The notes below the pieces were generated by a model, which worked only from the letters and a program-made list of their open reading frames with translations, did not search any database and was not told where the DNA came from. 64,000 bases of DNA, taken from assembly GCA_947504705.1 (NCBI GenBank), contig CANNIA010000004.1:1-64000 (forward strand), written 5' to 3'. This document shows, in pieces, positions 8,741 to 41,980 of this stretch; position 1 is the first letter of the stretch, and each line of letters opens with the position of its first letter. The position numbers were made by a program, and so were the translations under genes. Origin of the DNA: Paracoccaceae bacterium. Lineage in GTDB: Bacteria > Pseudomonadota > Alphaproteobacteria > Rhodobacterales > Rhodobacteraceae.

Positions 8741-10041
8741 TGGCACTTCCGAAGGCAAAGGAAGACGCCCTTTCGGCGCGTCTGGCAGGCCTGCCCGCGC
8801 TTTCGGGCAAGGGTTGGCTGGCTGCTGCCCGCGCGGACGCGTTGACCCGGCTGCAGGCCATGGGTTTGCCCGCAAAGCGCGATGAATACTGGCGCTATAC
8901 CGACCCGACCAGCCTGAACGCGGCTGATCCGGCCCCGGCCAAAAGCTTCAACCCCGGTGACGAGGCACCGCCCTTCGACAGCCTTGACCGGCTGAAGATC
9001 GTGTTCGTCGATGGGGTTTTCGACCCCAAGGCCTCGGACGATCTGAGTGCCGAAGGCATCCGCATTGAGCGCCTGTCCGATGCTGCTGCCGCCGATATCC
9101 ATTGGGCGCAGGGCCTGTATGGCGCGTTGGAGACTAAGGGCCAAAGCCCGGTCCAGCGCCCCCTCGCCACGCTTAACACCGCTTTTGCCACGGATGGTGT
9201 GCTGATCCATGTTACGGCCAAGGCAGCCAAGCCGGTTTCGCTGGTTTATATCCACAATTCAGAGACTTCCGATGCGATCCTGCATCACTGTGTGAAGCTT
9301 GATTCCGGTGCCAGCCTGACCCTTCTGGAAAACGGCCCGGCGGCGGCGCGGCTTAACAAGGTGATAGAGGTTGATGTCGGCGACGATGCCAGCTTCCACC
9401 ACATCCGCCTGCAAGGCCGCGACCACGAGCGCCGCGCTGTGACCCATCTTTTCGCCCGGCTTGGCGCGCGGTCAGAGCTACGATCCTTCACCCTGACCGC
9501 CAACGGCCGCCTGACCCGGAACGAGGCGGTGATCGACCTGACCGGCCCCGATGCCCGCGCCCATCTGGCAGGGGCAGCGGTCGGTGACGGCGAATTCCAC
9601 CATGACGACACCGTTTTTATCACCCATGGGGCCGAGGCTTGCGAAAGCCGTCAGGTCTTCAAGAAAGTGCTGATGAACGGTGCTGTCGGCGTCTTTCAGG
9701 GCAAGATCCTGGTCAAGCAAAGCGCGCAGAAGACCGACGGCTACCAGATCAGCCAGTCGCTGATGCTGGACGAAGACAGCCAGTTCCTGGCCAAACCTGA
9801 ACTGGAAATCTACGCCGATGACGTGAAGTGCAGCCACGGCTCCACCTCCGGGGCCATCGACGAAACCGCGCTTTTCTACCTGCAATCGCGCGGCGTGCCG
9901 CGCAGGGCAGCGCAGGCGCTTTTGGTGCTCGCCTTCCTGGCCGAAGCGATCCAGGAAATTGCCGACGACGAGATTGCCGAAGACATCCGGGTCCGGTTGG
10001 AAGGCTGGCTTGCCCGCCACGGCAACAAGGTCCGAGTATGA
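8740..10041 (+). CDS. sufD: Fe-S cluster assembly protein SufD
   Basis: This 433-residue partner of SufB completes the SufBCD scaffold and is needed for iron entry. It has a variable N-terminal helical region, then the right-handed beta-helix core (ATDGVLIHVTAKAAKPVSLV onward) and the shared C-terminal segment CSHGSTSGAIDETALFYLQSRG. The conserved His in the core and Cys in VKCSHG are present. The start overlaps the sufC stop and the stop overlaps the next gene (ATGA). Confidence 0.95.
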   Translation: MALPKAKEDALSARLAGLPALSGKGWLAAARADALTRLQAMGLPAKRDEYWRYTDPTSLNAADPAPAKSFNPGDEAPPFDSLDRLKIVFVDGVFDPKASDDLSAEGIRIERLSDAAAADIHWAQGLYGALETKGQSPVQRPLATLNTAFATDGVLIHVTAKAAKPVSLVYIHNSETSDAILHHCVKLDSGASLTLLENGPAAARLNKVIEVDVGDDASFHHIRLQGRDHERRAVTHLFARLGARSELRSFTLTANGRLTRNEAVIDLTGPDARAHLAGAAVGDGEFHHDDTVFITHGAEACESRQVFKKVLMNGAVGVFQGKILVKQSAQKTDGYQISQSLMLDEDSQFLAKPELEIYADDVKCSHGSTSGAIDETALFYLQSRGVPRRAAQALLVLAFLAEAIQEIADDEIAEDIRVRLEGWLARHGNKVRV

Positions 10042-26202: not shown

Positions 26203-27885
26203 TCAGTTCCCCAGGATCCCCGGCAACCGCAGCCCGTGATCCTTGGCGCACTGGATCGCGGTCTCATACCCCGCATCCGCATGCCGCCAGACCCCCGAAG
26301 CCGGGTCGTTCCAAAGAACCCGCTCCAGCCGTTTCGCGGCCTCGGGCGTGCCATCGGCCAGGATCACGACCCCAGCGTGCTGCGAGAACCCCATCCCGAC
26401 CCCGCCCCCATGGTGGAGGCTGACCCAAGTCGCACCCGAGGCCGTGTTGACCAGCGCATTCAGCAGCGGCCAGTCGGAGACAGCATCCGACCCGTCCCGC
26501 ATCGCCTCGGTCTCGCGGTTGGGCGAGGCCACCGACCCCGAATCCAGATGATCCCGCCCGATGACAATCGGAGCCTTCAACTCGCCCGAAGCAACCATTT
26601 CGTTGAACATCAACCCCGCCCGGTGGCGGTCACCAAGCCCGATCCAGCAGATCCGCGCGGGCAGACCCTGAAACGCAATCCGGTCGGCGGCCATGTCCAG
26701 CCAGCGGTGGAGGTGAGCATTCTCGGGGAACAGCTTCTTCATCGCCGCGTCGGTCTTGTGGATATCCTCCGGGTCGCCCGACAGCGCCACCCAGCGGAAG
26801 GGCCCGATCCCTTTGCAGAAAAGCGGGCGGATATAGGCGGGCACGAAACCGGGGAAGGCGAAGGCATTCTCAAGCCCTTCATCCTTCGCGACCTGCCGGA
26901 TGTTGTTGCCGTAATCCAGCGTCGGAACCCCGGCGTTCCAGAACCCGACCATCGCCTCGACATGCGTGCGCATGCTGGCCTTGGCGGCCTTCTCGACCGC
27001 CGAAGGGTCGGTCTCTTGCTTGGTCCGCCAATCACCCACCGACCAGCCCGCCGGGCAATAGCCGTGCAAGGGGTCATGGGCCGAGGTCTGGTCGGTCACG
27101 ATATCGGGGCGCGGACCGCCCGCCTTCATGCGGGCCAAAAGCTCGGGGAAGACGTCGGCGGCATTGCCGAGAAGGCCCACTGATTTTGCCTCACCCTTCG
27201 CCGTCCAATCGGCGATCAGGGCTAGTGCTTCATCCAATGTCTTCGCTTTGGCGTCCAAGTATCTGGTGCGAATGCGAAAATCGATCCGTGTCTCATCCAC
27301 TTCAACTGCCAGACAGCAAGCCCCAGCCATAACGGCGGCCAAGGGCTGTGCCCCGCCCATGCCGCCAAGCCCGCCGGTCAGGATCCACTTTCCGGTCAGG
27401 TTCCCGGCATAGTGCTGGCGGCCAGCTTCGGCGAAGGTCTCATAGGTTCCCTGCACAATCCCTTGTGTGCCAATGTAAATCCAGGACCCGGCGGTCATCT
27501 GGCCGTACATCATCAGACCCTTGCGGTCGAGTTCATTGAAATGCGCCCAGGTTGCCCAATGCGGCACGAGGTTGGAGTTTGCAATCAGCACACGCGGGGC
27601 ATCGGTGTGGGTCTTCACGATGGCAATCGGCTTGCCCGACTGGACGATCAGGGTCTCGTCCGCCTCAAGGTCCTTCAATCCTGCAACGATGCGGTCGAAA
27701 TCCTCCCAGGTGCGGGCGGCGCGGCCGATGCCGCCGTAGACCACCAATTCATGCGGGTTTTCGGCCACATCGGGATGCAGGTTGTTCATCAGCATCCGCA
27801 TTGCCGCCTCGCCGCCCCAGGTCTTGGCGGTCTTTTCCGGGCCGGTCGGCGGATAGATGTCACGCAGGTTGTGGCGGGGGTTCAT
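26203..27885 (-). CDS. hutU: Urocanate hydratase
   Basis: This 560-residue enzyme converts urocanate to 4-imidazolone-5-propionate using tightly bound NAD as an electrophile. The NAD loop [19 protein letters not shown] and the catalytic-region [11 protein letters not shown] are present. Full length. The ATG at 27885 follows GAGGT with a 5-base gap; in-frame codons upstream lie in the acyl-CoA dehydrogenase gene. It is last in the leftward operon hutI-hutH-CoA transferase-acyl-CoA dehydrogenase-hutU, eight bases after the dehydrogenase stop. Confidence 0.97.
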
Positions 27886-27893
27886 GGGATACC

Positions 27894-29033
27894 TCAGTGC
27901 AAAAGGTGGGCAGCGATGATCGTTCGCTGGATTTCGGAAGAGCCTTCGTAGATCCGCATGATCCGGCAATCGCGGCTCAGGCGTTCCAGAGGGAAATCGC
28001 GGGTATAGCCATAGCCGCCGTGCAGCTGCAGCGCCGAGTCAGTGACACGATGCGCCATTTCGCTGGCGAAAAGCTTGGCCATACTGGCGGCTTCGGTAAA
28101 TCGTTGGCCCGCTTGCCGCTGGCGCGCGGCCTCAAGCGCCAGAAGACGGGCGGCACGCAGATCAGTGGCCATGTCGGCCAGTTGCCAGCGAATGCCTTGA
28201 CGCGCGGCAAGGGGTTGGCCGCCGATGATGCGGGTTTTCACCCAATCGGTCGCGGCATCCAGCGCGGCTTGGGCGATGCCAATGCACATGGCGGCGACCT
28301 CGACCCGGCCATTGTCCAGAACCTTCATCGCGGTCTTGAACCCGCTGCCCTCGGGGCCGATGCGGTTGGCCTCGGGAACCCAAGCGTCGAAGTCCAGCTC
28401 CCAGACATGTCCGCCGCGCAGGCCCATCGTGCGTTCAACCCGGCCCGGAACCAGCCCGACTGTGCCCTTTTCCAGGACAAAGGCCGAAATTCCGCGATGC
28501 CCGGCAGCAGGATCGGTGACGGCATAGACGACGATGAAATCCGCAAACCCACCGTTTGATATAAAGCACTTCGAGCCTTTCAGACGATACCCCGCCCCCT
28601 CGCGCGTGGCGCGGGTCTTCATGTCGGCAGGGTCGGACCCGGCATTCCGTTCCGTCAGGGCAAAGGCACCCAGCGTCCGCCCTTCGGCAGCATCGGGCAG
28701 GAACCGCGCTTGTAAAGCGGCGTCGCCGCCCAGATGCAACGAGTCGGTGGCAAGGTAATGTGCCGTCAGCGCCGATGCGGTTGACCCGCAGGCCCCGGCT
28801 ACAATCTCGACCGCGCGCAGAAGGGCGGTGGCCGACAGGCCCGGCCCATGTGGTGCGGGCAGATTCGCCCCCATCATCCCGGCATCCGTCAAACAGGCAA
28901 GCTGGGCATGGACGAACTGCCCAGCCTCGTCGGTTTCAGCCGCCAATGGGGCCAGCCGTGCCGCCGACAGGCGCTGCAGCATGTCGCAAAAGGCGCGTTC
29001 TTCTTCGGGCAGGCTGGCGAAAAGATCGGTCAT
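27894..29033 (-). CDS. Acyl-CoA dehydrogenase embedded in the hut operon
   Basis: This 379-residue flavoenzyme of the short/medium-chain acyl-CoA dehydrogenase type passes electrons to ETF. It shows [15 protein letters not shown] (FAD/substrate loop), [29 protein letters not shown] and the catalytic base Glu363 in [11 protein letters not shown]. Its start overlaps the CoA-transferase stop by four bases and its stop is eight bases from hutU, so it is co-translated with histidine-degrading enzymes. A fitting, unproven substrate is imidazolepropionyl-CoA, which would give urocanoyl-CoA. Alternatives are unrelated short-chain acyl-CoAs. Confidence 0.9.
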
Positions 29034-30169
29034 GGGGCAAGTCCAAAGCAGCGAAGGATTTCTGGTCCGTCGGCGCCAAGCGCAGGGGCAGATCGGCTGG
29101 CCATGGGTTTCTGGCCGTCAAACCAGACCGGTTGGCCGACGGTCGGGGCGGTGCCCAGCACCGGATGCGGCAGGTTGGTCACAAGCCCCCGCGCGACCCC
29201 GTGCGGCGAGGCCGCGGCTTCGGCCAGGCTTTGCACTTGTGCCGTCGGGATCCCGGCCCCGGCCAAGGCGGCGACTACCTCGGCCACCGGGCGTGTGCCG
29301 GTCCAGCCTTCGATCGCGGTGCGGATGCGAGGTTCTTGCCGGGTGCGGCCGTCGTCGCGCGACAGGTCGGGATCGCTGGCAATATCAGGCCGCCCGATCA
29401 GGCCGCACAACCCCTGCCACTGCCGGTCGCCCAGAACCGCGATCACTGCCTGGCCATCTGCGCAGTCAAAGCAGCCAAAGGGGGTGGACAAGGGATGCCG
29501 GTTGCCGACCCGCTGCGGGGTCTGACCGGCATAGAACTGGACGGCGTGACTTGTCGGCAGCAGGGAAAAGAGCGCATCGAACATCGAAACATCCAGCGTC
29601 GCGCCAATCCCGGTCTGGCCCCGGCGATAAAGCGCTGCAAGGATGGCCCAACCGGCATAAAGCCCGGCCATCAGGTCGCCCTGACTTTCACCCACCTTCA
29701 GGGGCGCGCCACCATCTTCGCCATTGGCCGCCATCAGCCCCGACATCGCTTGGGCCACCAGATCATAAGCCGGCAGTGCGGCATCCGGCCCGGTCTGCCC
29801 AAAGCCCGAAATCGAGGCATAGATCAGCGCGGGATTTTCGCTGCGCAATTCAGGCCCAAGCCCCAGACGGGCGGCGACACCGGGGCGAAAGTTTTCGACC
29901 ACCACATCACAGGCCAGCGCAATCGCCCGCGCGGTCGTTTGCGCAGCGGGGTCCTTTAGGTCCAGAACGATGGACTGCTTGCCCCGGTTGACCAGCGTGA
30001 AAAGCGCTGATTCGCCCTGAACGAAGGGACCGATATGGCGGTAATCATCGCCGGAAGGTGGTTCAAGCTTGATCACCTCGGCCCCAAGATCGGCCAGAAG
30101 CGCGGTACAGAACGGCCCCGCCAAGACGCGGGTCAGGTCCAGAACGCGCAGACCGGCAAGAGGCTTCAT
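29030..30169 (-). CDS. Class III (CaiB/BaiF) CoA-transferase embedded in the hut operon
   Basis: This 379-residue protein moves CoA between acyl-CoA and a free acid through an aspartyl-CoA anhydride. The catalytic Asp is expected to be Asp165 in [13 protein letters not shown]. Other hallmarks are [13 protein letters not shown] and [20 protein letters not shown], plus [12 protein letters not shown]. Start and stop each overlap a neighbour by four bases (hutH upstream, acyl-CoA dehydrogenase downstream). Placement between hutH and hutU suggests it activates an imidazole acid such as imidazolepropionate; family membership alone does not show the substrate. Confidence 0.9.
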
Positions 30170-31710
30170 GCCAGAACCGGCAGATCAAGGCCTGTCGCAC
30201 GAGCAAGGCGGCCATCGGCCACCATGGCTGCGGCATGGGCCAGATCGGGCGCGAGATAGCGGTCGTCCTCAAGTGCGGCGACTTCTACGCGGAAGGCGGC
30301 AAGCGCACGTTGCAGGGGCGCAGAGGTTTTCAGGGGCGCGCGGAAGTCGAGGCCTTGCGCGGCGCACATCGCCTCGACCCCGAGGATCACGTTCAGGTTC
30401 TTAACCATTTTCCGCAACCGGCGCGCGCCATGGGCGGCCATCGACACATGGTCCTCTTGGTTGGCGCTGGTTGGGGTCGAGTCGATCACTGTCGGATGGG
30501 CGAGGTGCTTGTTCTCGCTCATCAGCGCCGCTGTGGTGACTTCGGCGATCATCAGGCCGGAGTTTAGGCCGGGCTTCGGGGTAAGGAAGGCAGGCAGGTC
30601 GAAATTCAGCGTTGGATCGACCATAAGGGCCACGCGCCGCTGGGAAATCGCGCCGATCTCGGCCAGGGCCAATGCGATCATGTCGGCTGCAAAACCAACG
30701 GGTTCGGCGTGGAAGTTGCCACCGGAGACGATCTGCCCATCCGACAGCACCAACGGGTTGTCGGTGGCGGCGTTCGCCTCGATCTGCAGAGTGCGGGCGG
30801 CCATGCGCAGCACGTCCATCGCCGCCCCGGTCACCTGCGGCTGGCAACGGATGCAATAGGGGTCCTGTACCCGGTGGTCGTCTTCGCGGTGGCTTTCGCG
30901 GATCTCGGAGCCAGCCAAAAGCGCGCGCATCGCGGCGGCGGCCTCGATCTGGCCGGGCTGGCCGCGAAGCGCATGGATTTCGGCCTCGAGCGGTGCGGTC
31001 GAGCCCATGATCGCGTCGGTCGACATCGTCGAAATGACCAGCGCCTCACGCGCGGCTTGCCAGCCCTGAAAAAGGCTCGCAAGCGCGTAAGCCGTGGAAA
31101 ACTGGGTGCCATTGATCAGCGCAAGGCCTTCCTTTGCTCCCAAGGTGATTGGAGAAAGTCCTTTGGATTTAAGCGCTTCTGCGCCGATCCTTATCTGGCC
31201 ATCCACCATCGCTTCGCCATGGCCGATCATCACGGCGGTCATGTGGGCCAGGGGTGCCAGGTCTCCGCTTGCTCCGACCGAGCCCTGATCGGGGACCACC
31301 GGGGTCACGCGGTGCAGAAGCATCGCCTCGATCAGTTCCACCACGACCGGTCGCACGCCTGACGCGCCGCGCCCAAGCGACAGAAGCTTCAGCACCATCA
31401 TAAGGCGTGCAACGTCTTCCGGCATCGGATCGCCGACGCCGCAGGAATGCGACAGGATCAGGTTTTCCTGAAGTTTGGCAGTATCTTGCAGGGCGATCTT
31501 CACGGATGCCAGTTTGCCAAAACCGGTATTCACCCCATAGACTGCCGCCGTCCCCTGTGCTGCCGCCGCGATATGGCCAGCGGCGCGGAGGATGCCAGGG
31601 CGGGCGCTGTCGTGCAGTTTGGCGGGCAGCATCTGGCGGTAGATGCGTTCCAACTGGTCAAGGCCAACTGTGCCGGGGATCAGAATTTCAGGCGACAGCT
31701 TTTCAGTCAT
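30166..31710 (-). CDS. hutH: Histidine ammonia-lyase
   Basis: This 514-residue enzyme deaminates L-histidine to urocanate, the first step of the pathway. The Ala147-Ser148-Gly149 triad in [15 protein letters not shown] cyclises to the MIO cofactor. The active-site segment YGVNTGFG (58-65) is also present. The start at 31710 ([10 protein letters not shown]) follows GGAGG by eight bases, within the last codons of hutI. The frame is open 51 codons further upstream but only as an overlap with hutI. Confidence 0.97.
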
Positions 31711-32896
31711 CGGGGTGGCCTCCGAAAATGCGGGTGTGAAGGGGGGTGGCGCCAATCCGGTAGCTGAGTTCGGCCGGATGCTCGGCCTCCCAAAGGCAAA
31801 GGTCGGCACGCAGGCCGGGGGTGATCTGGCCGCGGTCGGCAAGGCCAAGCGCGCGGGCGGCATGGGTGGTGGTGCCCAAAAGCGCCTCTTCCGGGGTCAT
31901 CCGGAACAGGGTGCAGGCCATGTTCATCGCCAAGGTCAGCGAGGCCATGGGCGAGGAGCCGGGGTTCACATCGGTCGCCACGGCCATCGGCACACCGGCG
32001 GCCTGCAAGGCGGCGATGGGGGGGGGTTGCGTTTCGCGCAGGGTGTAGAAGGCACCGGGCAGGATCACGGCGACGGTTCCCGCGCGGGCCATGGCTTTGA
32101 TCCCGGCGTCGGACAGATACTCCAGATGGTCCGCCGAGAGTGCCCCAAGACCTGCCGCGAAGGCTGCGCCGCCAAGGTCGGAAAGCTGTTCGGCATGCAG
32201 CTTCACGGCCAGACGCAGGGCCTGCGCCTCGGCGTACAGCGGCCGGAGGTCTTCGACCGAAAAGGCGATCCCTTCGCAGAAGGCGTCGACCGCATCGACC
32301 AGCCCTTCGGCGTGCGCGGCACGCAGGGACGGTATCGCGACCTCGGCGATATAGTCCGCATTCCGGCCCTTGTATTCGGGCGGGATCGCGTGGGCGGCCA
32401 GATGCGTCGCCTTCACTGTCACCCGCCGCACACCAGCAATCCGGCGGGCCACGCGCAGCATCTTCAGCTCGTCTTCGATGGTCAGGCCATAGCCCGACTT
32501 GACCTCAATCGTCGTGGCCCCGCTGGCGATCAGCTGATCGACCCGCGTCAGGGCACTGGTCAGAAGCTGGTCTTCGCTGGCAGCTCGTGTGGCCTTGACG
32601 GTCGACAGGATGCCGCCACCCGCCCGCGCCACTTCCTCATAGCTCGCACCCTGCAGCCGCAGCTCGAACTCCACGGCGCGATGCCCGCCAAAGACCGGGT
32701 GACCGTGGCAGTCGATCAGGCCGGGGGTAAGAAGGCGACCTTCGCAATCGAGTTCCGGCAGGGCGCGATACTCAGCGGGCAGGGCGGCCATTGGTCCGGC
32801 CCAGGTGATGCGCTCTCCCTCGATCACCACAGCGGCATCCGGGATCAGGCCGTAGCCTGCGGTCATCGTTGCGAGGGTGGCGTGGGTCAGGAGCAT
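31703..32896 (-). CDS. hutI: Imidazolonepropionase
   Basis: This 397-residue amidohydrolase opens 4-imidazolone-5-propionate to N-formimidoyl-L-glutamate. Metal ligands His64 and His66 in [10 protein letters not shown], the later [10 protein letters not shown] histidine, SADHLEYL and the Asp in TDVNPGSSP are visible. It is the first gene of the leftward hut operon, directly behind the divergent promoter and operator shared with hutF. AAGG lies close to the ATG. Overlaps hutH by eight bases. Confidence 0.96.
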
Positions 32897-32962
32897 TCAC
32901 TTGCCTTATGACTGGTCTATTGGCTAATATGTCTAGACATAATGCCTGTCAAGTGAGTCGCC
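32897..32962. promoter_or_regulatory. Divergent hutI/hutF promoters with a shared palindromic operator
   Basis: The perfect palindrome TATGTCTAGACATA (32928-32941) contains GT-N-TA-N-AC, the pattern favoured by HutC-type GntR regulators. Rightward, TTGCCT (32901-32906) and TAATAT (32925-32930) are 18 bp apart. Leftward, TTGACA (32952-32947) and TATTAG (32929-32924) are 17 bp apart. The operator overlaps the rightward -10 and the leftward spacer, so one bound HutC dimer could block both promoters. Confidence 0.75.
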
Positions 32963-34315
32963 ATGATCCTGCACGCCGAAACAGCACTTCTGCCCGATGG
33001 CTGGGCCAGCAATGTCCGCATCCGGGTGGAAGGGGGCCGCATCGCCGAAGTGACGCCCAATTCCGCGCCGGAAGGCACGCGGCTTGGCGTCCTTCTGCCC
33101 GCGCCGGTGAACCTGCACTCCCACACGTTCCAGCGCGCCATGGCCGGGATGACCGAAGGCCGCACCGCGGGGCAGGACAGTTTTTGGACCTGGCGGACGC
33201 TGATGTACCGCTTCCTTGAACGCCTCTCGCCAGAGGATGTGCAGACCATCGCGGCGCAGGCGTTGGTGGAAATGGCGGAATCTGGTTTCGCCTCGGTCTG
33301 CGAGTTTCACTACCTCCACCATCCGGTTGGCGGTGGCACCTATGCCGATCCTGCCGAGATGTCTGGGCGGATCATTGCGGCGGCACAGGAGACGGGCTTT
33401 GGCCTGACGCATCTGCCGGTGATCTATGAACAGGGCGGCGTCGATGGGCGGGCGCTGGCGGGCGGGCAGTTGCGGTTTGGATCGACGCCCGACACCTATG
33501 CGCGCATTCTGGATGGGGCGAAAGCGGCGCTGTTGGCTCTGCCGGATGGCCAGCTTGGTGTTGCCCCCCATTCCCTGCGCGCGGTCAGCAAGGCCACCCT
33601 TGCGCGCGTAGCTGGCATGGTTCCAACCGGCCCGGTCCATATCCATATCGCCGAACAGGTGGCCGAGGTGACCGAGGTTCAGGCGGCCTGGGGCGCGCGG
33701 CCCATGGACTGGGCCGTGGCGAACTTGGCCCTGGATGCGCGTTGGTGCATGATCCATGCGACGCAGATGACAGGTGAGGAAACCACGGCCCTTGCCCGGA
33801 TCGGGGCCGTCGCGGGCCTGTGCCCGATCACCGAGGCGAACCTTGGCGACGGGATCTTCAACGGGCCGGACTGGTTGGCTGCGGGCGGGGCCTTTGGGGT
33901 GGGCTCGGACAGCAACGTCCTGATCTCGATGCCCGAGGAATTGCGAACGCTGGAATACTCCCAGCGCTTCAACCACAAGGCCCGTGCGGTGATGGCGGAT
34001 GGGGCCCGATCCACCGGGCGACTTCTGTGGGACGGGGCGGCAGCGGGTGGCGCAAAAGCCGGGGGCCGCGATGCGGGGGCGATTGCGCCGGGCCTTTGGG
34101 CCGATCTTCTGGCCATCGACACGGGCGACCTTCGGCTAGAGGGGCTGAAAGGCGACACACTTCTGGATGCGTTTCTCTTTGCAGGTCGCGACGGGCTGGT
34201 GACCGACCTTTGGTCCGCTGGTCGCCATATCGTGAAGGACAGCCGCCACATCGCCCGCGACACGGTTGCGACTCGCTTCCGCGCCGTGATGCAGCGCCTG
34301 CGCGGGGCGCTATGA
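32963..34315 (+). CDS. hutF: Formimidoylglutamate deiminase
   Basis: This 450-residue amidohydrolase releases ammonia from N-formimidoyl-glutamate to give N-formyl-glutamate. Metal ligands His52 and His54 (NLHSHTFQRAM), then HIHIAEQ, MIHATQMT and GVGSDSNV follow the family order. Its presence means the five-step pathway of pseudomonads and rhodobacters is used rather than HutG-type direct hydrolysis. The N-formylglutamate deformylase that should follow is not in the window. Its stop overlaps hutC (ATGA). Confidence 0.95.
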   Translation: MILHAETALLPDGWASNVRIRVEGGRIAEVTPNSAPEGTRLGVLLPAPVNLHSHTFQRAMAGMTEGRTAGQDSFWTWRTLMYRFLERLSPEDVQTIAAQALVEMAESGFASVCEFHYLHHPVGGGTYADPAEMSGRIIAAAQETGFGLTHLPVIYEQGGVDGRALAGGQLRFGSTPDTYARILDGAKAALLALPDGQLGVAPHSLRAVSKATLARVAGMVPTGPVHIHIAEQVAEVTEVQAAWGARPMDWAVANLALDARWCMIHATQMTGEETTALARIGAVAGLCPITEANLGDGIFNGPDWLAAGGAFGVGSDSNVLISMPEELRTLEYSQRFNHKARAVMADGARSTGRLLWDGAAAGGAKAGGRDAGAIAPGLWADLLAIDTGDLRLEGLKGDTLLDAFLFAGRDGLVTDLWSAGRHIVKDSRHIARDTVATRFRAVMQRLRGAL

Positions 34316-34998
34316 CCCATGGCTGGGAAGATATCCGCGCCGATGTCCTGCGCCGTATCCGGTCGCGGGAATGGCCGCCGGGCGGGCTGATCCCCGGCGA
34401 GGAAACGCTGGCCGCCGAATTCGGCGTAGCACGGGCGACGGTGAACCGGGCGCTGACAGCGCTTGCCGAGGCCGGAGTGATCGAACGGAAAAAGCGGGCG
34501 GGCACAAGGGTTGCCGAACTGCCCGTGCGCCGTGCCCGGTTGGAGATTCCGGTGATCCGGCTGGATGTCCTTGGCCGGGGTCTGGCCTATGACTTCAAGC
34601 TTCTGGCCGACCGCATGGGACCAGCGCCAGTGCCGGTAACCGCAAGGCTCGGCCTGCCGGAGGCAACCCCGATGCGCTATCTGGAAACCCTGCATCTCGC
34701 TGGCGGGCGGCCCTTCGTGCATGAGGCGCGCTGGCTGAACCCCGCGGCTTTGCAAGGGGCAACCCCCGATTTTGCAACGATCAGCGCCAATGAGTGGCTG
34801 GTGACGGAAGTGAGCCTCGTGTCCGGCGATATCGCCTTTACCGCCGAAGACGCCAGCCCGCGCGAGGCCGAAGTGCTGGGCGTCGCCCCCGGTGCGGCCC
34901 TTCTCATTGCCGAACGCACCACCCATGGCACGCTTGGCCCGATCACCTGGGTCAAGCTTGCCCATGCGCCGGGGCATCGGGTGTCGATGACGTTCTAG
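34312..34998 (+). CDS. hutC: Histidine utilisation repressor HutC (GntR family)
   Basis: This 228-residue regulator has an N-terminal GntR winged helix (residues about 1-70; GEETLAAEFGVARATVNRAL) and a C-terminal UTRA ligand domain (about 85-225). HutC proteins sense urocanate and leave DNA when it is bound. The likely operator is the palindrome between hutI and hutF. The ATG overlaps the hutF stop, so hutF-hutC is a two-gene, autoregulated unit. Confidence 0.93.
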   Translation: MTHGWEDIRADVLRRIRSREWPPGGLIPGEETLAAEFGVARATVNRALTALAEAGVIERKKRAGTRVAELPVRRARLEIPVIRLDVLGRGLAYDFKLLADRMGPAPVPVTARLGLPEATPMRYLETLHLAGGRPFVHEARWLNPAALQGATPDFATISANEWLVTEVSLVSGDIAFTAEDASPREAEVLGVAPGAALLIAERTTHGTLGPITWVKLAHAPGHRVSMTF

Positions 34999-35910: not shown

Positions 35911-35968
35911 AAGCCCCGGGGGCGCTTCGCCCCCCGGACCCCCTGAGGATATTTGGAGAAGAGAAAGC
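35911..35968 (+). repeat. Dispersed hairpin + GAGGATATTT element
   Basis: A GC stem-loop around GGGGGCG-CTT-CGCCCCC is followed by GAGGATATTTGG and then AGAAGAGAAAGC. The ends match the element at 4308-4409, and the 3' half matches 42016-42039. It lies in the LysR/demethylase divergent gap, oriented toward the demethylase. Confidence 0.7.
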
Positions 35969-36063
35969 ATCTGATCGGGTTTTCCGATCAATACCCGGTT
36001 CCTTGCCGAATTGAAAGCGGGGCGGCGAAGGCCGATAGTACCGCGCGAAACGGGAGGGCGGTC

Positions 36064-38505
36064 ATGGCGGAATTTGCGTCGGCGAAAGTGGTGATCATCG
36101 GCGGAGGGGCGGTTGGTGTATCCTCGCTATACCATCTGGCCAAGGCGGGCTGGACCGATGCCCTCCTGCTGGAAAAGAACGAGCTGACCGCCGGATCAAC
36201 TTGGCATGCGGCGGGCAATGTGCCGACGTTCTCGTCCTCCTGGTCGATCATGAACATGCAGCGCTATTCGGCCGAGCTGTACCGGGGTCTGGGCGAGGCT
36301 GTCGGCTATCCGATGAACTACAACGTCACCGGATCGGTGCGGCTTGGCCATACGGATGAACGCCTGATGGAATTCCAGAAGGTTGCAGGGATGGGCCGTT
36401 ATCAGGGCATGGACCTGGAGGTCCTGACGCCGGATGAGATCAAGTCGCGCTATCCCTTTGTCGAAACGCATGATCTGACCGGTGCGCTTTATGACCCGAA
36501 TGACGGCGACATCGACCCGGCGCAGCTGACGCAGGCCCTGGCGACGGGTGCCCGCCAGATGGGCGCACGGATCGAACGCTTCTGCCCGGTCACGGCGGCG
36601 CGCTGGACGGGGACGGAATGGATCCTTTCGACGCCCAAGGGCGAAGTGCGGGCGGAATATGTGGTGAACGCGGGCGGGTACTATGCGGCTCAGGTCGGCG
36701 CGCTGTTCGGTCGCCGGGTACCGATGATGGTGATGAGCCATCAGTACATGCTGTTTGACACCATCCCGGAACTGGAAAGCTGGACCAAGGAAGTCGGCCA
36801 CAAGCTGCCCTTGCTGCGCGACGTGGACAGCTCTTACTACCTGCGCCAGGAAAAGATGGGCTTCAACCTTGGCCCCTATGAAGGCAACTGCCGCGCGCAT
36901 TGGGCGACGCCGGATGACCCGATGCCGGATGACTTCAGTTTCCAGCTTTATCCCGATGATCTGGACCGGCTGGAATGGCACATCAACGACGCCATGGACC
37001 GCGTGCCGCTGCTGGCCAAGGCGAACCTGACCAAGGTGATCAACGGTCCGATCCCATATACGCCGGACGGCAATCCCCTGATCGGCCCGATGCCGGGGGT
37101 TCCGAATGCGTTCGAGGCTTGCGTCTTCACCTTTGGCATCTGTCAGGCCGGGGGCGCGGGCAAGGTTCTGGCCGAATGGATGACCGAAGGTGCCACCGAA
37201 TGGGATATGTGGTCCTGCGATCCCCGCCGCTTCACCGGCTGGGAGGATCACGATTACTGCGTGAAAAAGGGGCTGGAGGTCTATGGCAACGAATATGCCA
37301 TGCATTTCCCGCATCACGCCTGGCCCGACGGCCGGATGAAGCGCCTTTCTGCCGTGCATGACCGCACCTCTGCGCTGGGCGCGGAATATGGCCCCTACAA
37401 CGGCTATGAGCGCGCGCTTTGGTATGCACGCCCCGGCGATGACATCGAAGAGCAGGCACAGCGCACCTGGCGGCGCGAAGGCCCGTGGTTCAACGCGGTC
37501 AAGGCCGAATGCGAGGCCGTCCGTGATGCTTGTGGCATTCTTGATCTGCCGGGCTTCAGCCGCTTCCGCCTGACGGGCGCTGGGGCTGCCGCGTGGCTCT
37601 TGCAGCAGATCACCGGCAAGCTGCCCAATGTCGGGCGTCTGGGTCTCGCCTATTTCTCCGACGACAAAGGCCGGATCGTGACCGAAATGTCGGTCGCCCG
37701 GATCGCCGAGGATGAAATCCTTCTGATCACCGCCTCGACGGCGCAACTGCATGACCGGGGCTGGCTGGAGCGTCACCTTGCCCCCGGTCTCTCGCTGGTC
37801 GACGAAAGTGCCGATTGGTCCTGTCATATCCTGACCGGCCCGAAAGCGCGGGAGGTTCTGGCCGCAACCGGCACTGATGCCGATCTGGCCAAGGGCTGGC
37901 TGACCCATCAGGCCGCGACCATTGCGGGCCGTGATGTGAAGCTGATGCGCGTGTCTTTTGCCGGGGAACTGGGCTGGGAAATCCACACCAAGCTTGCCGA
38001 TACGCCTGCGGTCTGGGACGCGGTGATGGCGGCGGGCAAGCCCCATGGCCTGAAACCCTTCGGCATGTTCGCGCTGAATTCCTTGCGGGTCGAAAAGGGC
38101 TATCGCACCTGGAAGGGTGACTTGTCGACCGACTACACCATCCTGCAGGGCGGGCTGGACCGCTTTGTCGACTGGGCCAAGCCGGACTTCCGGGGCAAGG
38201 CGGCCCTTGAGGCCGAAAAGCAGCGCGGCGTCACCAAGCGTTTCGCGACGCTGGTCATCGAAGCCGACACCCATGACCCGCCCTATATGGCCACCATCTG
38301 GCATGACGGCAAAATCGTGGGCGAACTGACCAGCGGCTATTACGGTCACCGCATCGGGGCCTGCGTCGGGCTTGGCATGCTGAAGACGGACCTGAACGTG
38401 GCCGGGCAAGCGGTCGAAGTTGAAATCTTCGGCAAGCGCTATCCCGCGACCGTCAAGGCGGATGAGCCCCTGTGGGACGCCAAGAACGAGCGCATCCGCG
38501 CATGA
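36064..38505 (+). CDS. FAD-dependent N-demethylating dehydrogenase with GcvT domain (dimethylglycine/sarcosine dehydrogenase-like), copy 1
   Basis: This 813-residue protein has an N-terminal DAO-type FAD domain (VVIIGGGAVGVSSLYHLAKA) and His48 in TWHAAG, the residue that covalently holds FAD in dimethylglycine and sarcosine dehydrogenases. A linker (about 375-430) and a C-terminal GcvT/aminomethyltransferase-like folate domain (about 430-813) follow. Such enzymes oxidise an N-methyl group and transfer the one-carbon unit to tetrahydrofolate. The start at 36064 follows GGGAGGGCGG; earlier in-frame codons run through the repeat element. First gene of the cluster; its stop overlaps the MDR gene. 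Confidence 0.9.
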   Translation: MAEFASAKVVIIGGGAVGVSSLYHLAKAGWTDALLLEKNELTAGSTWHAAGNVPTFSSSWSIMNMQRYSAELYRGLGEAVGYPMNYNVTGSVRLGHTDERLMEFQKVAGMGRYQGMDLEVLTPDEIKSRYPFVETHDLTGALYDPNDGDIDPAQLTQALATGARQMGARIERFCPVTAARWTGTEWILSTPKGEVRAEYVVNAGGYYAAQVGALFGRRVPMMVMSHQYMLFDTIPELESWTKEVGHKLPLLRDVDSSYYLRQEKMGFNLGPYEGNCRAHWATPDDPMPDDFSFQLYPDDLDRLEWHINDAMDRVPLLAKANLTKVINGPIPYTPDGNPLIGPMPGVPNAFEACVFTFGICQAGGAGKVLAEWMTEGATEWDMWSCDPRRFTGWEDHDYCVKKGLEVYGNEYAMHFPHHAWPDGRMKRLSAVHDRTSALGAEYGPYNGYERALWYARPGDDIEEQAQRTWRREGPWFNAVKAECEAVRDACGILDLPGFSRFRLTGAGAAAWLLQQITGKLPNVGRLGLAYFSDDKGRIVTEMSVARIAEDEILLITASTAQLHDRGWLERHLAPGLSLVDESADWSCHILTGPKAREVLAATGTDADLAKGWLTHQAATIAGRDVKLMRVSFAGELGWEIHTKLADTPAVWDAVMAAGKPHGLKPFGMFALNSLRVEKGYRTWKGDLSTDYTILQGGLDRFVDWAKPDFRGKAALEAEKQRGVTKRFATLVIEADTHDPPYMATIWHDGKIVGELTSGYYGHRIGACVGLGMLKTDLNVAGQAVEVEIFGKRYPATVKADEPLWDAKNERIRA

Positions 38506-39539
38506 CCCCGGTTCCCGCCATGATGTCGGGCGTGCAGCTTGTCGGTCACGGCGGGCCCGAGACGCTAGTCTGGCGGGACGACATTCCGGTGCCGCGCCCC
38601 GGTCCGGGCGAGGTGCTGGTCAAGGTCTTGGCGGCAGGGGTCAACATGACCGATCTCAACACCCGCAAGGGTTGGTATGGCGGCGAAGGCCGTGCGGCTG
38701 GCCGGGCAGGCGAAATGGGTTTTCCCCGCATCCAGGGCTCTGACCTCTGCGGGCGGATCGTGGCGCTGGGCGCAGGCGTGCAGGGCCTGCCTTTGCGCGC
38801 GCGGGTGATTTGTCCCACGAACCAGCACGAGCCGACGGCAGCAAACCCGATCCATTTCGTCTCGATCGGCTCGGAATTTGAAGGGGCCTTCGCGCAATAC
38901 TGCGTGGTCAAGGCGCGGCACCTGCGTAATGTGACCGCCTCGCCCCTGACAGACACGGAAACCGGCGCGATGCCCTGCGCGCACGGCACAGCGCATAACC
39001 TGCTGACCCGCGCCAATGTTGCCGTGGGCGAACGCGTGCTGGTCACCGGAGCTTCGGGCGGCGTGGGCCTTGCAGCCGTGCAGCTTGCCCTTCTTCGCGG
39101 GGCGGAAGTGACCGCAGAATGCAGCCTGTCGAAATCCGCGCCTCTGCGCGCCATGGGGGCCACGATCCTGCCCCGCGACAGTGTCCCACAGGCGCAAAGC
39201 TTTGATGCCGTCATCGACATTGTCGGCGGCGACGGCTTTCAAGACCGCCTCGACGCGCTTCGCCCCGGTGGCCGCTATGCCACAAGCGGGGCCGTCGGGG
39301 GCCCCTTGGTCAAGGGTGACCTCCGCCGCGTCTACCTCAATAACCTGACGATCCACGGCGCGACCCATCAGCCACGCGAAGTATTTGCGGGCCTTGTCAC
39401 CATCATCAACACCGCCCGCATCCGCCCAGTGGTGTCGAAAACCACCCCCCTGCGCGACATCGCCCTTGCGCAGGCCGACCTTGCCGCCGGGCGCACTCCC
39501 GGCAAACTTGTTCTTGTTCCATCGGAGGCCCAGCCATGA
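38502..39539 (+). CDS. MDR-family oxidoreductase (quinone oxidoreductase/alcohol dehydrogenase-like)
   Basis: This 345-residue medium-chain dehydrogenase/reductase has the GroES-like N-terminus (PGPGEVLVKVLAAGVNMTDL) and an NADP-binding loop (VLVTGASGGVGLAAVQLALL). The Cys/His zinc ligands of true alcohol dehydrogenases are not in their usual places, so it is more like zinc-free quinone oxidoreductases. Substrate unknown. It overlaps both flanking FAD/GcvT genes by four bases, an intimate arrangement implying a role in the same pathway. Confidence 0.85.
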   Translation: MTPVPAMMSGVQLVGHGGPETLVWRDDIPVPRPGPGEVLVKVLAAGVNMTDLNTRKGWYGGEGRAAGRAGEMGFPRIQGSDLCGRIVALGAGVQGLPLRARVICPTNQHEPTAANPIHFVSIGSEFEGAFAQYCVVKARHLRNVTASPLTDTETGAMPCAHGTAHNLLTRANVAVGERVLVTGASGGVGLAAVQLALLRGAEVTAECSLSKSAPLRAMGATILPRDSVPQAQSFDAVIDIVGGDGFQDRLDALRPGGRYATSGAVGGPLVKGDLRRVYLNNLTIHGATHQPREVFAGLVTIINTARIRPVVSKTTPLRDIALAQADLAAGRTPGKLVLVPSEAQP

Positions 39540-41980
39540 GTATCCCCACCAAAGCCCGCGCCGTTGTCATCGGGGGCGGAGTCTCCGGCTGCTCGGTCGC
39601 CTATCACCTGGCCAAGGCGGGCTGGACCGACATTGTGCTTCTGGAGCGCCGCAAGCTGACAAGCGGCACCACCTGGCACGCCGCAGGCCTGATCGGCCAG
39701 CTTCGCGGGTCTGCCAACATGACCCGGCTCGCGAAATACTCCCGCGACCTTTACATCAATCTTGAGGCGGAAACCGGCGTTGCCACTGGCATGAAGCAGG
39801 TCGGCTCGATCTCGGTCGCGTTGACCGCCGAACGGCATGAAGAACTTCTAAGGAACGCCACCATCGCCCGCATCTTCGGCGTGGACGTGGCCGAAATCTC
39901 GCCGACCGAGGCCAAGGCGATGTATCCTCACCTGAACATCGGCGATGTGGTGGGCGCGGTGCATCTGCCTGGCGACGGCCAGTGTGACCCGGCCAACATC
40001 GCGATGGCGCTGGCCAAGGGTGCGCGGATGCAGGGTGTGCAAATCCATGAGATGACCAAGGTCACCAAAATCACCACTGCCAACGGCAAGGTGACCGGCG
40101 TTGATTACGAAGGCACTGATGGCCCCGGCCATATTCAGGCCGACGTGATCGTCAACTGCGGCGGCATGTGGGGCCGCGACTTGGCCGCGCAGAACGGCGT
40201 CACCCTGCCGCTCCATGCTTGCGAGCATTTCTACCTGATCACCGAACCCGTCAAGGGCATCGACCTCAACCTGCCGGTCCTCCGCGTGCCGGACGAATGC
40301 GCCTATTACAAGCAGGACGCAGGGAAAATGATGCTGGGGGCCTTTGAACCCAAAGCCAAACCCTGGGGCATGGACGGCATTCGCCCGGACTTCGAATTCG
40401 ACACGCTGCCCGAGGATTGGGATCACTTCATGCCCATCCTTGAAATGGCCACCAAACGCCTGCCGCTGTTCGAAACAGCAGGCATCCACACTTTCTTCAA
40501 CGGCCCGGAATCCTTCACCCCCGACGACCGCTATTACCTTGGCGAAGCGCCCGAGGTGAAAGGCTACTGGATCGCCGCTGGCTATAACTCGGTCGGGATC
40601 GTGTCTTCAGGTGGGGCCGGTCAGGCGCTGGCGCATTGGATCACCGAAGGCGAACCGCCCTTTGACCTGTGGGAAGTCGACATCCGCCGTGCGCAGCCGT
40701 TCCAGAAGAACCGCAGCTACCTCAAGGAACGCGTCACCGAAACTCTGGGACTTTTGTACGCCGACCACTTCCCTTATCGCCAGATGGCCACCTCTCGTGG
40801 CATCCGCCGCACGCCCTTGCACGATCACCTGAAAGCGCGCGGTGCGGTGTTTGGTGAGGTTGCAGGTTGGGAGCGGGCCAACTGGTTTGCCAATGAGGGG
40901 CAGGAGCGGGATTACAAGTATAGCTGGAAGCGGCAGAACTGGTTTGAAAACCAGAAGGCCGAACATCTGGCAGTCCGCAACGGTGTCGGCTTCTTCGACA
41001 TGACCTCCTTTGGCAAGATCCGCGTCGAAGGCCGCGATGCCGCTAAATTCCTGAACCGGGTCTCCTCCGCCCAGGTCGATGTGGAACCGGGCAAGATCGT
41101 CTACACTATGTTCCTGAACCAGCGCGGCGGGATCGAGGCCGACTTGACCGTCACCCGCCTGTCGGAAACCGCCTATCTTCTGGTCGTGCCGGGGGCCACC
41201 TTCCAGCGCAACCTTGACTGGCTGCGCCGCAATGTCGGCGACGATTTCGCCGTGATCACCGATGTGACGGCGGCTGAATCCGTGCTTTGCGTCATGGGCC
41301 CGAAATCGCGGGACCTGCTGTCCCGTGTGTCGCCCAACGATTTCTCCAACGCCGCCCATCCCTTTGGCACGGCCAAGGAAATCGAGATCGGCATGGGCCT
41401 CGCCCGCGCCCACCGCGTCACCTATGTGGGCGAACTCGGGTGGGAGCTTTACGTCAGTTCCGACCAGACCGCCCATGTGTTTGAAACGCTGGAAGCGGCA
41501 GGCGCGGACCTTGGCCTGAAACTCTGCGGCCTGCACACGCTGGATTCTTGCCGGATCGAGAAAGCCTATCGCCACTGGGGCCACGACATCACCGACGAAG
41601 ACCACGTTCTGGAAGCAGGCCTTGGCTTCACTGTTTCCGCCAAGAAACCCGACTTCCTTGGTCGCGACGCCGTGTTGCGGAAGAAAGAGGCCGGGCTTGA
41701 CCGCAAGATGCTACAGTTCCGCCTGAAAGACCCCGAGCCGCTTCTCTTCCATAACGAAGCCATCGTCCGTGACGGCAAGATCGTTGGCCCGGTCACCAGC
41801 GGTGCCTATGGCCATTTCCTTGGCGGCGCCATCGGTATGGGCTATGTCCCTGCCAAGGGTCAGAGCGATGACGACATCCTCGGCTCGACCTATGAGATCG
41901 AAGTTGCTGGCAAGCGCCATGCCGCGATTGCCAGCCTTGCCCCGATGTATGACCCGAAATCCGAACGGATCCGGGCCTGA
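39536..41980 (+). CDS. FAD-dependent N-demethylating dehydrogenase with GcvT domain, copy 2
   Basis: This 814-residue paralogue of the gene at 36064 has the same layout: FAD fingerprint VIGGGVSGCSVAYHLAKAGW, flavinylation His48 in TTWHAAGLIG, and GcvT-like C-terminal half (from about 430, with GELGWELYVSSDQ and the final GHFLGGAIGMGYV barrel). Conserved tail PKSERIRA parallels KNERIRA of copy 1. Sequence divergence suggests sequential demethylations (for example dimethyl- then monomethyl-amine) or different substrates. It starts inside the MDR stop. A hairpin (41992-42010) follows. Confidence 0.9.
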   Translation: MSIPTKARAVVIGGGVSGCSVAYHLAKAGWTDIVLLERRKLTSGTTWHAAGLIGQLRGSANMTRLAKYSRDLYINLEAETGVATGMKQVGSISVALTAERHEELLRNATIARIFGVDVAEISPTEAKAMYPHLNIGDVVGAVHLPGDGQCDPANIAMALAKGARMQGVQIHEMTKVTKITTANGKVTGVDYEGTDGPGHIQADVIVNCGGMWGRDLAAQNGVTLPLHACEHFYLITEPVKGIDLNLPVLRVPDECAYYKQDAGKMMLGAFEPKAKPWGMDGIRPDFEFDTLPEDWDHFMPILEMATKRLPLFETAGIHTFFNGPESFTPDDRYYLGEAPEVKGYWIAAGYNSVGIVSSGGAGQALAHWITEGEPPFDLWEVDIRRAQPFQKNRSYLKERVTETLGLLYADHFPYRQMATSRGIRRTPLHDHLKARGAVFGEVAGWERANWFANEGQERDYKYSWKRQNWFENQKAEHLAVRNGVGFFDMTSFGKIRVEGRDAAKFLNRVSSAQVDVEPGKIVYTMFLNQRGGIEADLTVTRLSETAYLLVVPGATFQRNLDWLRRNVGDDFAVITDVTAAESVLCVMGPKSRDLLSRVSPNDFSNAAHPFGTAKEIEIGMGLARAHRVTYVGELGWELYVSSDQTAHVFETLEAAGADLGLKLCGLHTLDSCRIEKAYRHWGHDITDEDHVLEAGLGFTVSAKKPDFLGRDAVLRKKEAGLDRKMLQFRLKDPEPLLFHNEAIVRDGKIVGPVTSGAYGHFLGGAIGMGYVPAKGQSDDDILGSTYEIEVAGKRHAAIASLAPMYDPKSERIRA

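Follow-up and report, generated by a model that had tools for sequence, protein, structure and literature searches.

Coenzyme A (CoA) loops that act on one carbon-carbon double bond are familiar from several microbial systems, such as CaiB/CaiA of Escherichia coli carnitine metabolism, where a family III CoA-transferase works with a flavoenzyme of the acyl-CoA dehydrogenase family in a closed loop, and CarA/CarC of caffeate respiration and FldA/AcdA of Clostridium, where aryl-propionates and aryl-acrylates are handled as CoA esters and the CoA is recycled. All of these operate in the reductive direction on another substrate or ring, and the latter two are anaerobic. The net reaction considered here was reportedly observed by Coote and Hassall in 1973, when imidazolylpropionate was oxidised to urocanate in Pseudomonas testosteroni, an aerobe, with no genes assigned. 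We describe a pair of genes, encoding a family III CoA-transferase (CoAT) and an acyl-CoA dehydrogenase (ACAD), that is built into a histidine utilization (hut) operon of a Paracoccaceae bacterium (GenBank assembly GCA_947504705.1, contig CANNIA010000004.1, positions 1 to 64,000; this whole stretch of 64,000 nucleotides is referred to as the window). The pair is very likely an optional inlet to the Hut pathway and not a step of the textbook route, and it probably uses a loop of CoA transfers to turn imidazole propionate (ImP) oxidatively into urocanate.

A comparable gain of function is found in methylsuccinate use by itaconate CoA-transferase and methylsuccinyl-CoA dehydrogenase, where a known cluster takes on a further saturated compound through a transferase and an ACAD joined to it, although this is a dicarboxylic acid in another pathway (PMC12290011). 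The substrate and product proposed here are also those of UrdA, the urocanate reductase that makes ImP in the reverse direction, but UrdA acts on free urocanate and is described there without CoA, unlike the CoA-transferase and ACAD of the window (PMC10882135). ImP is made by gut microbes, and titles of papers cited in PMC13320830 associate it with atherosclerosis, Parkinson's disease and type 2 diabetes. Leyn et al. surveyed the HutC regulon and, in the section examined, list hut enzymes and transporters but neither CoAT nor ACAD (PMC5343134). Among the titles and abstract openings of the matches listed for the open PMC literature, with subscription papers outside the scope, there was no assignment of genes to ImP degradation and no report of CoAT/ACAD in hut operons, and the CoA esters, searched by name, gave no match in that literature. 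If the proposal is true, two genes would mark a sink for ImP and could serve to find degraders in metagenomes or as a tool enzyme, and a CoA-dependent inlet would be added to an operon that has long been a model for the breakdown of amino acids.

The pair inside hut operons

The genes hutI (imidazolonepropionase, 31703..32896), hutH (histidine ammonia-lyase, 30166..31710), CoAT (29030..30169), ACAD (27894..29033) and hutU (urocanate hydratase, 26203..27885) follow one another on the reverse strand with overlaps of 8, 4 and 4 bp and a final gap of 8 bp. This is the spacing claimed in a preliminary description made from the letters of the window, and its reading of the five genes as a single operon also stands; they lie behind the only HutC-type operator of the genome. 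The hut enzymes all score above their cut-offs: hutI by TIGR01224 (468.8 bits, cut-off 298.15), hutH by TIGR01225 (664.7 bits, cut-off 539.15) and hutU by TIGR01228 (928.9 bits, cut-off 375), the start of hutU being the ATG at 27885 (its longest open reading frame extends to a TTG at 27969). Divergent from these, on the forward strand, are hutF (formimidoylglutamate deiminase, 32963..34315; TIGR02022 540.7 bits, cut-off 413.05) and hutC (34312..34998), encoding a GntR-family histidine utilization repressor whose score is borderline (TIGR02018 220.4 bits, cut-off 220). In many carriers of the pair hutG lies between hutH and CoAT; this position is empty in the window, and two PF05013 genes are located elsewhere in its genome. 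The open reading frames and a family scan revealed no ligase, CoA-ester hydratase or thioesterase among the operon genes.

A test set beforehand was whether this gene order is unique to the strain, and in public genomes it recurs, so that a strain-specific accident is rejected. Scanning with ACAD yielded 75 loci, 70 of them at ≥60% identity and 5 at ≤43%. With hut-adjacent defined as hutU starting ≤300 bases after ACAD and/or hutH ending ≤1.5 kb before CoAT on the same strand (hutG being allowed between hutH and CoAT, and several contigs being short), the pair is hut-adjacent in 58 of the 70 relatives, 52 with both neighbors, 4 with hutU only and 2 with hutH only, which excludes chance adjacency. 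Carriers include Rhodobacterales and Rhizobiales, among them Paracoccus denitrificans DSM 413 (L032) and P. aminophilus JCM 7686, and annotated records name the two products merely as CoA transferase and acyl-CoA dehydrogenase family protein. ACAD is split into two overlapping frames in L067 and L081. At one locus (L014, 5361-8008), hutF is followed directly by CoAT-ACAD-hutU, with no match to hutI or hutH within the stretch.

That the pair is optional follows from its distribution. In the window's family, hutU was found in 101 of 198 genomes and ACAD (E ≤ 1e-110) in 7 of 198, the window's own included. All seven fall among the 101 with hutU (the chance of 6/6 against 100/197, own genome excluded, is about 0.016 by a hand calculation that ignores kinship between genomes), and ACAD adjoins hutU in five of them, the exceptions being G385 and G413. 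A congener (G490) has hutI-hutH-hutU without the pair; the sequences on either side are 78% and 83% identical, and the place of the 2.3 kb pair is taken by about 80 bases. A necessary step of the Hut route is thus rejected, both by this operon and by the family counts of hutU versus ACAD. Because the congener's operon is free of the pair and hutU is far commoner than ACAD, the pair is likely dispensable for histidine use, and it is unlikely that histidine use itself needs it.

Probable HutC control and cassettes that keep the pair

The predicted HutC-type operator of the window (32927..32942, no strand) is a 16-base palindrome, ATATGTCTAGACATAA, between hutI and hutF. When the pattern WTATGTNTAGACATAW was searched with up to two mismatches through the 3,719,300-base genome, this site was the sole fit, and the reversed control pattern had none. 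Because the only fitting operator of the genome precedes the operon, the pair very probably shares its switch with the hut genes, and its membership in the HutC regulon is near certain as far as sequence can tell. With an operator model built on 15 sites of the window and of hut loci, the operator stands out in the 49 hut loci tested, some of whose sites were themselves used for training, with none of 200 shuffles scoring as well in 47 of them and one of 200 in the other two.

Of the 12 relatives in which the pair is not hut-adjacent, two are intermediate (L063 and L037) and ten (L031, L033, L039, L048, L054, L057, L059, L068, L071 and L081) are cassettes with the order HutC-CoAT-ACAD-ABC importer, in which the repressor is HutC-like and the importer is of the amino-acid type, with hut enzymes absent from the stretch examined. 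The operator model matches upstream of CoAT in all ten cassettes and in L063, and in each none of 300 shuffles was as good. All 12 of these loci have the gene for the importer's binding protein, and among the 58 hut-adjacent loci it comes after hutU in 26, a count in which some contigs end before the gene could appear. In the genomes concerned urocanase was found above cut-off in 12 of 12, on another contig in 11 and about 4 kb away in L063, and their separate hut loci (ten read over 18 kb, one over 4.6 kb) contained no pair. A second, divergent urocanase (668-693 bits) is present in six of the 12 genomes (G290, G291, G293, G294, G296 and G298).

The origin of the cassettes is indicated by the repressors and by the two intermediate loci. 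Two cassette repressors were scanned against TIGR02018 and both exceed the cut-off of 220 (L039, 244.1 bits; L054, 230.2 bits). In a HutC tree, whose outgroup did not form one side of a branch, the ten cassette repressors cluster with ten HutC proteins of pair-bearing hut operons (support 100/98), and this cluster sits inside a 37-row HutC group (100/100). For six cassette genomes, the HutC encoded with the hut operon that lacks the pair belongs to a distant group of 8 rows; that of L031's genome (L158) is apart from both groups, that of L037's genome (L165) is in the 37-row group, and no hutC was found beside the hut loci L156 and L157. In L063 the order is CoAT-ACAD-importer-HutC, with hutU and hutH about 4 kb further on. 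In Paracoccus alkanivorans (L037/L166; L166 3422-6637), what is left of hutI and hutU flanks an intact pair and importer. The two operators in front have the same sequences as those of the full hut operon in that genome (L165), and this locus reads as a hut operon caught on its way to becoming a cassette. The ACAD trees require four changes to the cassette state, two of them forced by well-supported branches. On these data the simplest account is that the cassettes would be hut operons that lost the hut enzymes and kept the repressor, operator, pair and importer.

Because it is just these elements that would have been kept, the pair appears to have been retained as an inlet for an external compound, and selection seems to maintain it for a compound that comes from outside, has the inducing effect of a hut inducer and is passed into the hut route. 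This bears on the idea of damage repair, according to which the pair would handle some other imidazole acid connected with the pathway, for instance a side product of HutU or HutI like hydantoin propionate. The position of the pair beside hutU is what such a role would predict, but since the cassettes without hut enzymes carry an importer, the compound is probably external, and we regard damage repair as extremely improbable.

A second arrangement is found in another family. In a sample of the phylum, ACAD (E ≤ 1e-95) is present in 9 of 398 genomes, own included, three of which are outside the class. The family of one of these three (G549) has ACAD in 14 of 198 genomes, and all 14 carriers have the order hutU-CoAT-ACAD-NCS1 permease (hutU is cut by the stretch ends in the short ones, and in L198 ACAD was placed from the 198-genome family search). 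Because this order is kept in G549's family, the pair stands beside hutU in two orders in two lineages. One locus (L203) has the full set of hutF, hutC, hutH, hutU, CoAT, ACAD, NCS1, hutI and hutG, and the regulator of L183 is above the HutC cut-off (298 against 220). In a wider ACAD tree the hutU-NCS1 carriers form a clade of their own (100/99), basal to a 58-row group, the fork above it being weak (81/57). In Pseudomonas fluorescens SBW25, hutTu, a urocanate transporter gene, lies between hutU and hutH (PMC8871633), and it is our guess that the NCS1 gene is a relative of hutTu.

Enzyme families and the proposed CoA loop

CoAT, a putative urocanoyl-CoA:imidazolepropionate CoA-transferase, belongs to family III by its match to PF02515 (CoA_transf_3, 413.7 bits, above cut-off) and its catalytic Asp, and ACAD, a putative imidazolepropionyl-CoA dehydrogenase, matches PF00441 (Acyl-CoA_dh_1, 177.1 bits), PF02770 and PF02771, all above cut-off, and has the catalytic Glu. 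The catalytic motifs claimed for both enzymes are borne out as near-invariant among relatives, in alignments where some rows are repeats of one gene. Asp165 of CoAT is Asp in 109 of 109 rows and aligns with the Asp of the four solved relatives shown, and Glu363 of ACAD is conserved in 111 of 113 rows and aligns with the Glu of 5ol2; of the other two rows, one has a gap at a contig end (L072) and one, a paralogue, has Asp (L003). Other ACAD residues are specific to the clade in the alignment, for example Asp97 (102/103 rows) and His92 (103/103).

Among the NCBIfam models with listed scores, ACAD is under the cut-off of all 21 and CoAT under that of all seven. The best scores are those for acryloyl-CoA reductase AcrC with ACAD (NF042972, 360.2 of 640 bits) and for succinyl-CoA:mesaconate CoA-transferase with CoAT (NF041294, 292.3 of 700); the score for succinyl-CoA:glutarate CoA-transferase is 273.5 of 750 (NF052585). 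The scores for CaiA and CaiB are likewise below cut-off, with 139.8 of 540 bits for NF002885 and 126.8 of 413 for NF002914. Glutaryl-CoA dehydrogenase and the succinyl-CoA:glutarate, mesaconate and carnitine identities are therefore rejected. The AF2 model of ACAD (pLDDT 93.4) has 5ol2 as its top PDB match (43% identity), and its nearest folds are butyryl-CoA and similar dehydrogenases. The CoAT model is weaker (pLDDT 80.8), and its matches, which include CaiB structures, superpose poorly (TM about 0.5, rmsd about 20). As judged from these models, the fold search only repeats the family assignment, and that of CoAT tells nothing beyond the family.

The direction of the reaction has to be considered here, because the highest-scoring NCBIfam model for ACAD is a reductase and CarC of the caffeyl-CoA reductase complex (6fah) is among its PDB matches. 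Both would agree with urocanate being loaded with CoA and reduced to ImP as an electron sink, much as CaiB/CaiA and caffeate respiration work. However, the genome has four matches to the electron transfer flavoprotein (ETF) family, on two contigs other than that of the pair and not beside it, and one match to ETF-quinone oxidoreductase (ETF-QO), which fits oxidation, and the cassettes couple the pair with importers in urocanase-bearing genomes, as catabolism would. Reduction is highly unlikely to be the physiological direction.

For oxidation, the compound served by the inlet should be imported and hut-inducer-like, should need CoA activation and alpha,beta-desaturation, and should yield a hut intermediate. 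Of the Hut intermediates only urocanate has a double bond in its side chain, and ImP is the compound in which that one C-C bond is saturated. The title of a 1965 report describes imidazolepropionate as an inducer of the histidine-degrading enzymes. Because ImP is urocanate saturated at one C-C bond and a reported hut inducer, it is the simplest fit and likely the substrate. Dehydration of imidazolelactate to urocanoyl-CoA was also considered and is rejected, there being no dehydratase among the operon genes.

In the proposed mechanism, CoAT would transfer CoA onto ImP, and ACAD would desaturate the resulting imidazolepropionyl-CoA to urocanoyl-CoA, with electrons passing to ETF and from there to ETF-QO. 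CoAT would then pass the CoA from urocanoyl-CoA to the next ImP, and the free urocanate would go to HutU. Another acyl-CoA, perhaps succinyl-CoA, would prime the loop, and HutC would repress until bound by urocanate or by ImP itself. Because CoA acts as a catalyst, no ATP would be spent per turn. A closed loop fits because the operon has none of the ligase, CoA-ester hydratase or thioesterase genes, and since HutU takes free urocanate, which no thioesterase of the operon could release, a CoA-recycling transferase would be the natural partner; we consider the loop somewhat more probable than one-way activation. The imidazolepropionate-to-urocanate branch of the preliminary description is in this way supported in part: a HutC-controlled inlet to urocanate is very likely given the recurrence, operator, repressor lineage, importers and second placement by hutU; the substrate, direction, loop and inducer are what we infer from them.

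LysR-linked lineages, other loci and points against the proposal

Other members of the ACAD clade (51-67% identical) are not HutC-linked, and most adjoin a LysR-type gene. Twelve such stretches were read (L149, L151, L152, L153, L154, L182, L184, L185, L207, L216, L217 and L218). Pfam confirms the LysR gene in L152, L184 and L185, annotation does so in L207, L216 and L218 and a sequence match in L217; in L151, L154 and L182 it was seen by eye, and L153 has none next to the pair. These members make up at least three lineages of the wider ACAD tree, which branch between the hutU-NCS1 carriers and the hut/cassette clade. Each of the three includes one hut-near member, and they are compatible with one shared substrate, though their substrates may differ. 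That these lineages are often away from hut genes, and that the CoAT and ACAD families are both broad, would suit a pair that acts on an unrelated short-chain acid and merely shares the operon. Against this, the HutC-type operator and HutC lineage are retained where the hut enzymes are gone, and the pair has its second placement by hutU in another family, so that an unrelated acid is very unlikely.

Plasmids provide further loci. Of 188 plasmid records with an ACAD match, 14 are at 60-80% identity and 174 below 60%, with no value between 44.0% and 61.1% among the 60 rows listed. Twelve of the 14 were read, H9 and H10 (P. yeei, like H8) being left out. Four of these loci are hut-embedded (L210, L211, L213 and L215, hutU being in two pieces in L211), two are HutC-ABC cassettes (L212 and L214), four are LysR-linked (L207, L216, L217 and L218), and two have hut-type operators and another gene set. 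The last two are on Gemmobacter fulvus plasmid p2 (L208, 2866-7521) and a plasmid of Mesorhizobium sp. AR02 (L209, 10224-15080), and in both the pair is beside genes for a Rieske oxygenase, a flavohemoprotein-like reductase, a HisC-like transaminase and a GlcD-like FAD oxidase. In L208 the operators precede the Rieske gene and CoAT, and in L209 two lie between the importer and CoAT. L209 carries HutC but falls outside the hut/cassette clade of the tree. This set is possibly an imidazolelactate or methyl-imidazole branch, and L051 and L152 carry parts of it. The same loci are what speaks for a modified natural substrate, for example N-methylated imidazolepropionate, that would undergo the same chemistry in the same place and end in the Hut pathway. 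However, two or more genes of the set are present in only four loci, the other hut-embedded loci scanned being without them, and the HutU of the operon would be expected to take unmodified urocanate. A modified acid is thus an unlikely natural substrate.

Unmodified ImP remains the preferred substrate, and several points weigh against it or against the inlet as a whole. The pair is rare: of 289 genomes sampled from the class, 6 have CoAT (E ≤ 1e-100), own included. Two pair-bearing hut loci (L053 and L058) have the other HutC type, that of the distant 8-row group, and hut genes are near in just 3 of the 12 LysR-type stretches (L152, L184 and L185). Neither CoAT nor ACAD reaches a substrate-level cut-off and so homology, as far as these models go, gives no substrate. 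The gene set of L208 and L209 makes a modified acid, methylated or hydroxylated, possible. The same 1965 title that makes imidazolepropionate an inducer also terms it nonmetabolizable in the organism concerned.

A wider picture can be offered tentatively, as a possibility that we do not favor. HutC in several Proteobacteria may run a broader imidazole-acid salvage regulon, in which ImP would enter as urocanate via CoAT/ACAD, imidazolelactate would enter as histidine via the GlcD-like oxidase and HisC-like transaminase, and N-methylated forms would be stripped by the Rieske oxygenase, with amino-acid-type ABC, NCS1 and TRAP systems as importers. In that case the pair would supply the genes that have been missing for ImP degradation by bacteria.

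A few additional observations were made at individual loci. L185 has the LysR-linked pair beside a full hut operon and a hut-type operator (9009-9024) between ACAD and genes that by eye resemble those of a TRAP transporter. In G331 (L146, 7262-13032), a second urocanase (TIGR01228, 898.8 bits) adjoins a CoAT 46% identical to that of the window, without ACAD, and the locus also encodes a DctP-type binding protein and a protein resembling zinc alcohol dehydrogenases. In the window itself, positions 35953-41980 contain two large open reading frames (850 and 814 aa) that appear by eye to encode fusions of an FAD-dependent dehydrogenase with a GcvT-type domain, and an alcohol-dehydrogenase-like frame, also recognized by eye, sits between them.

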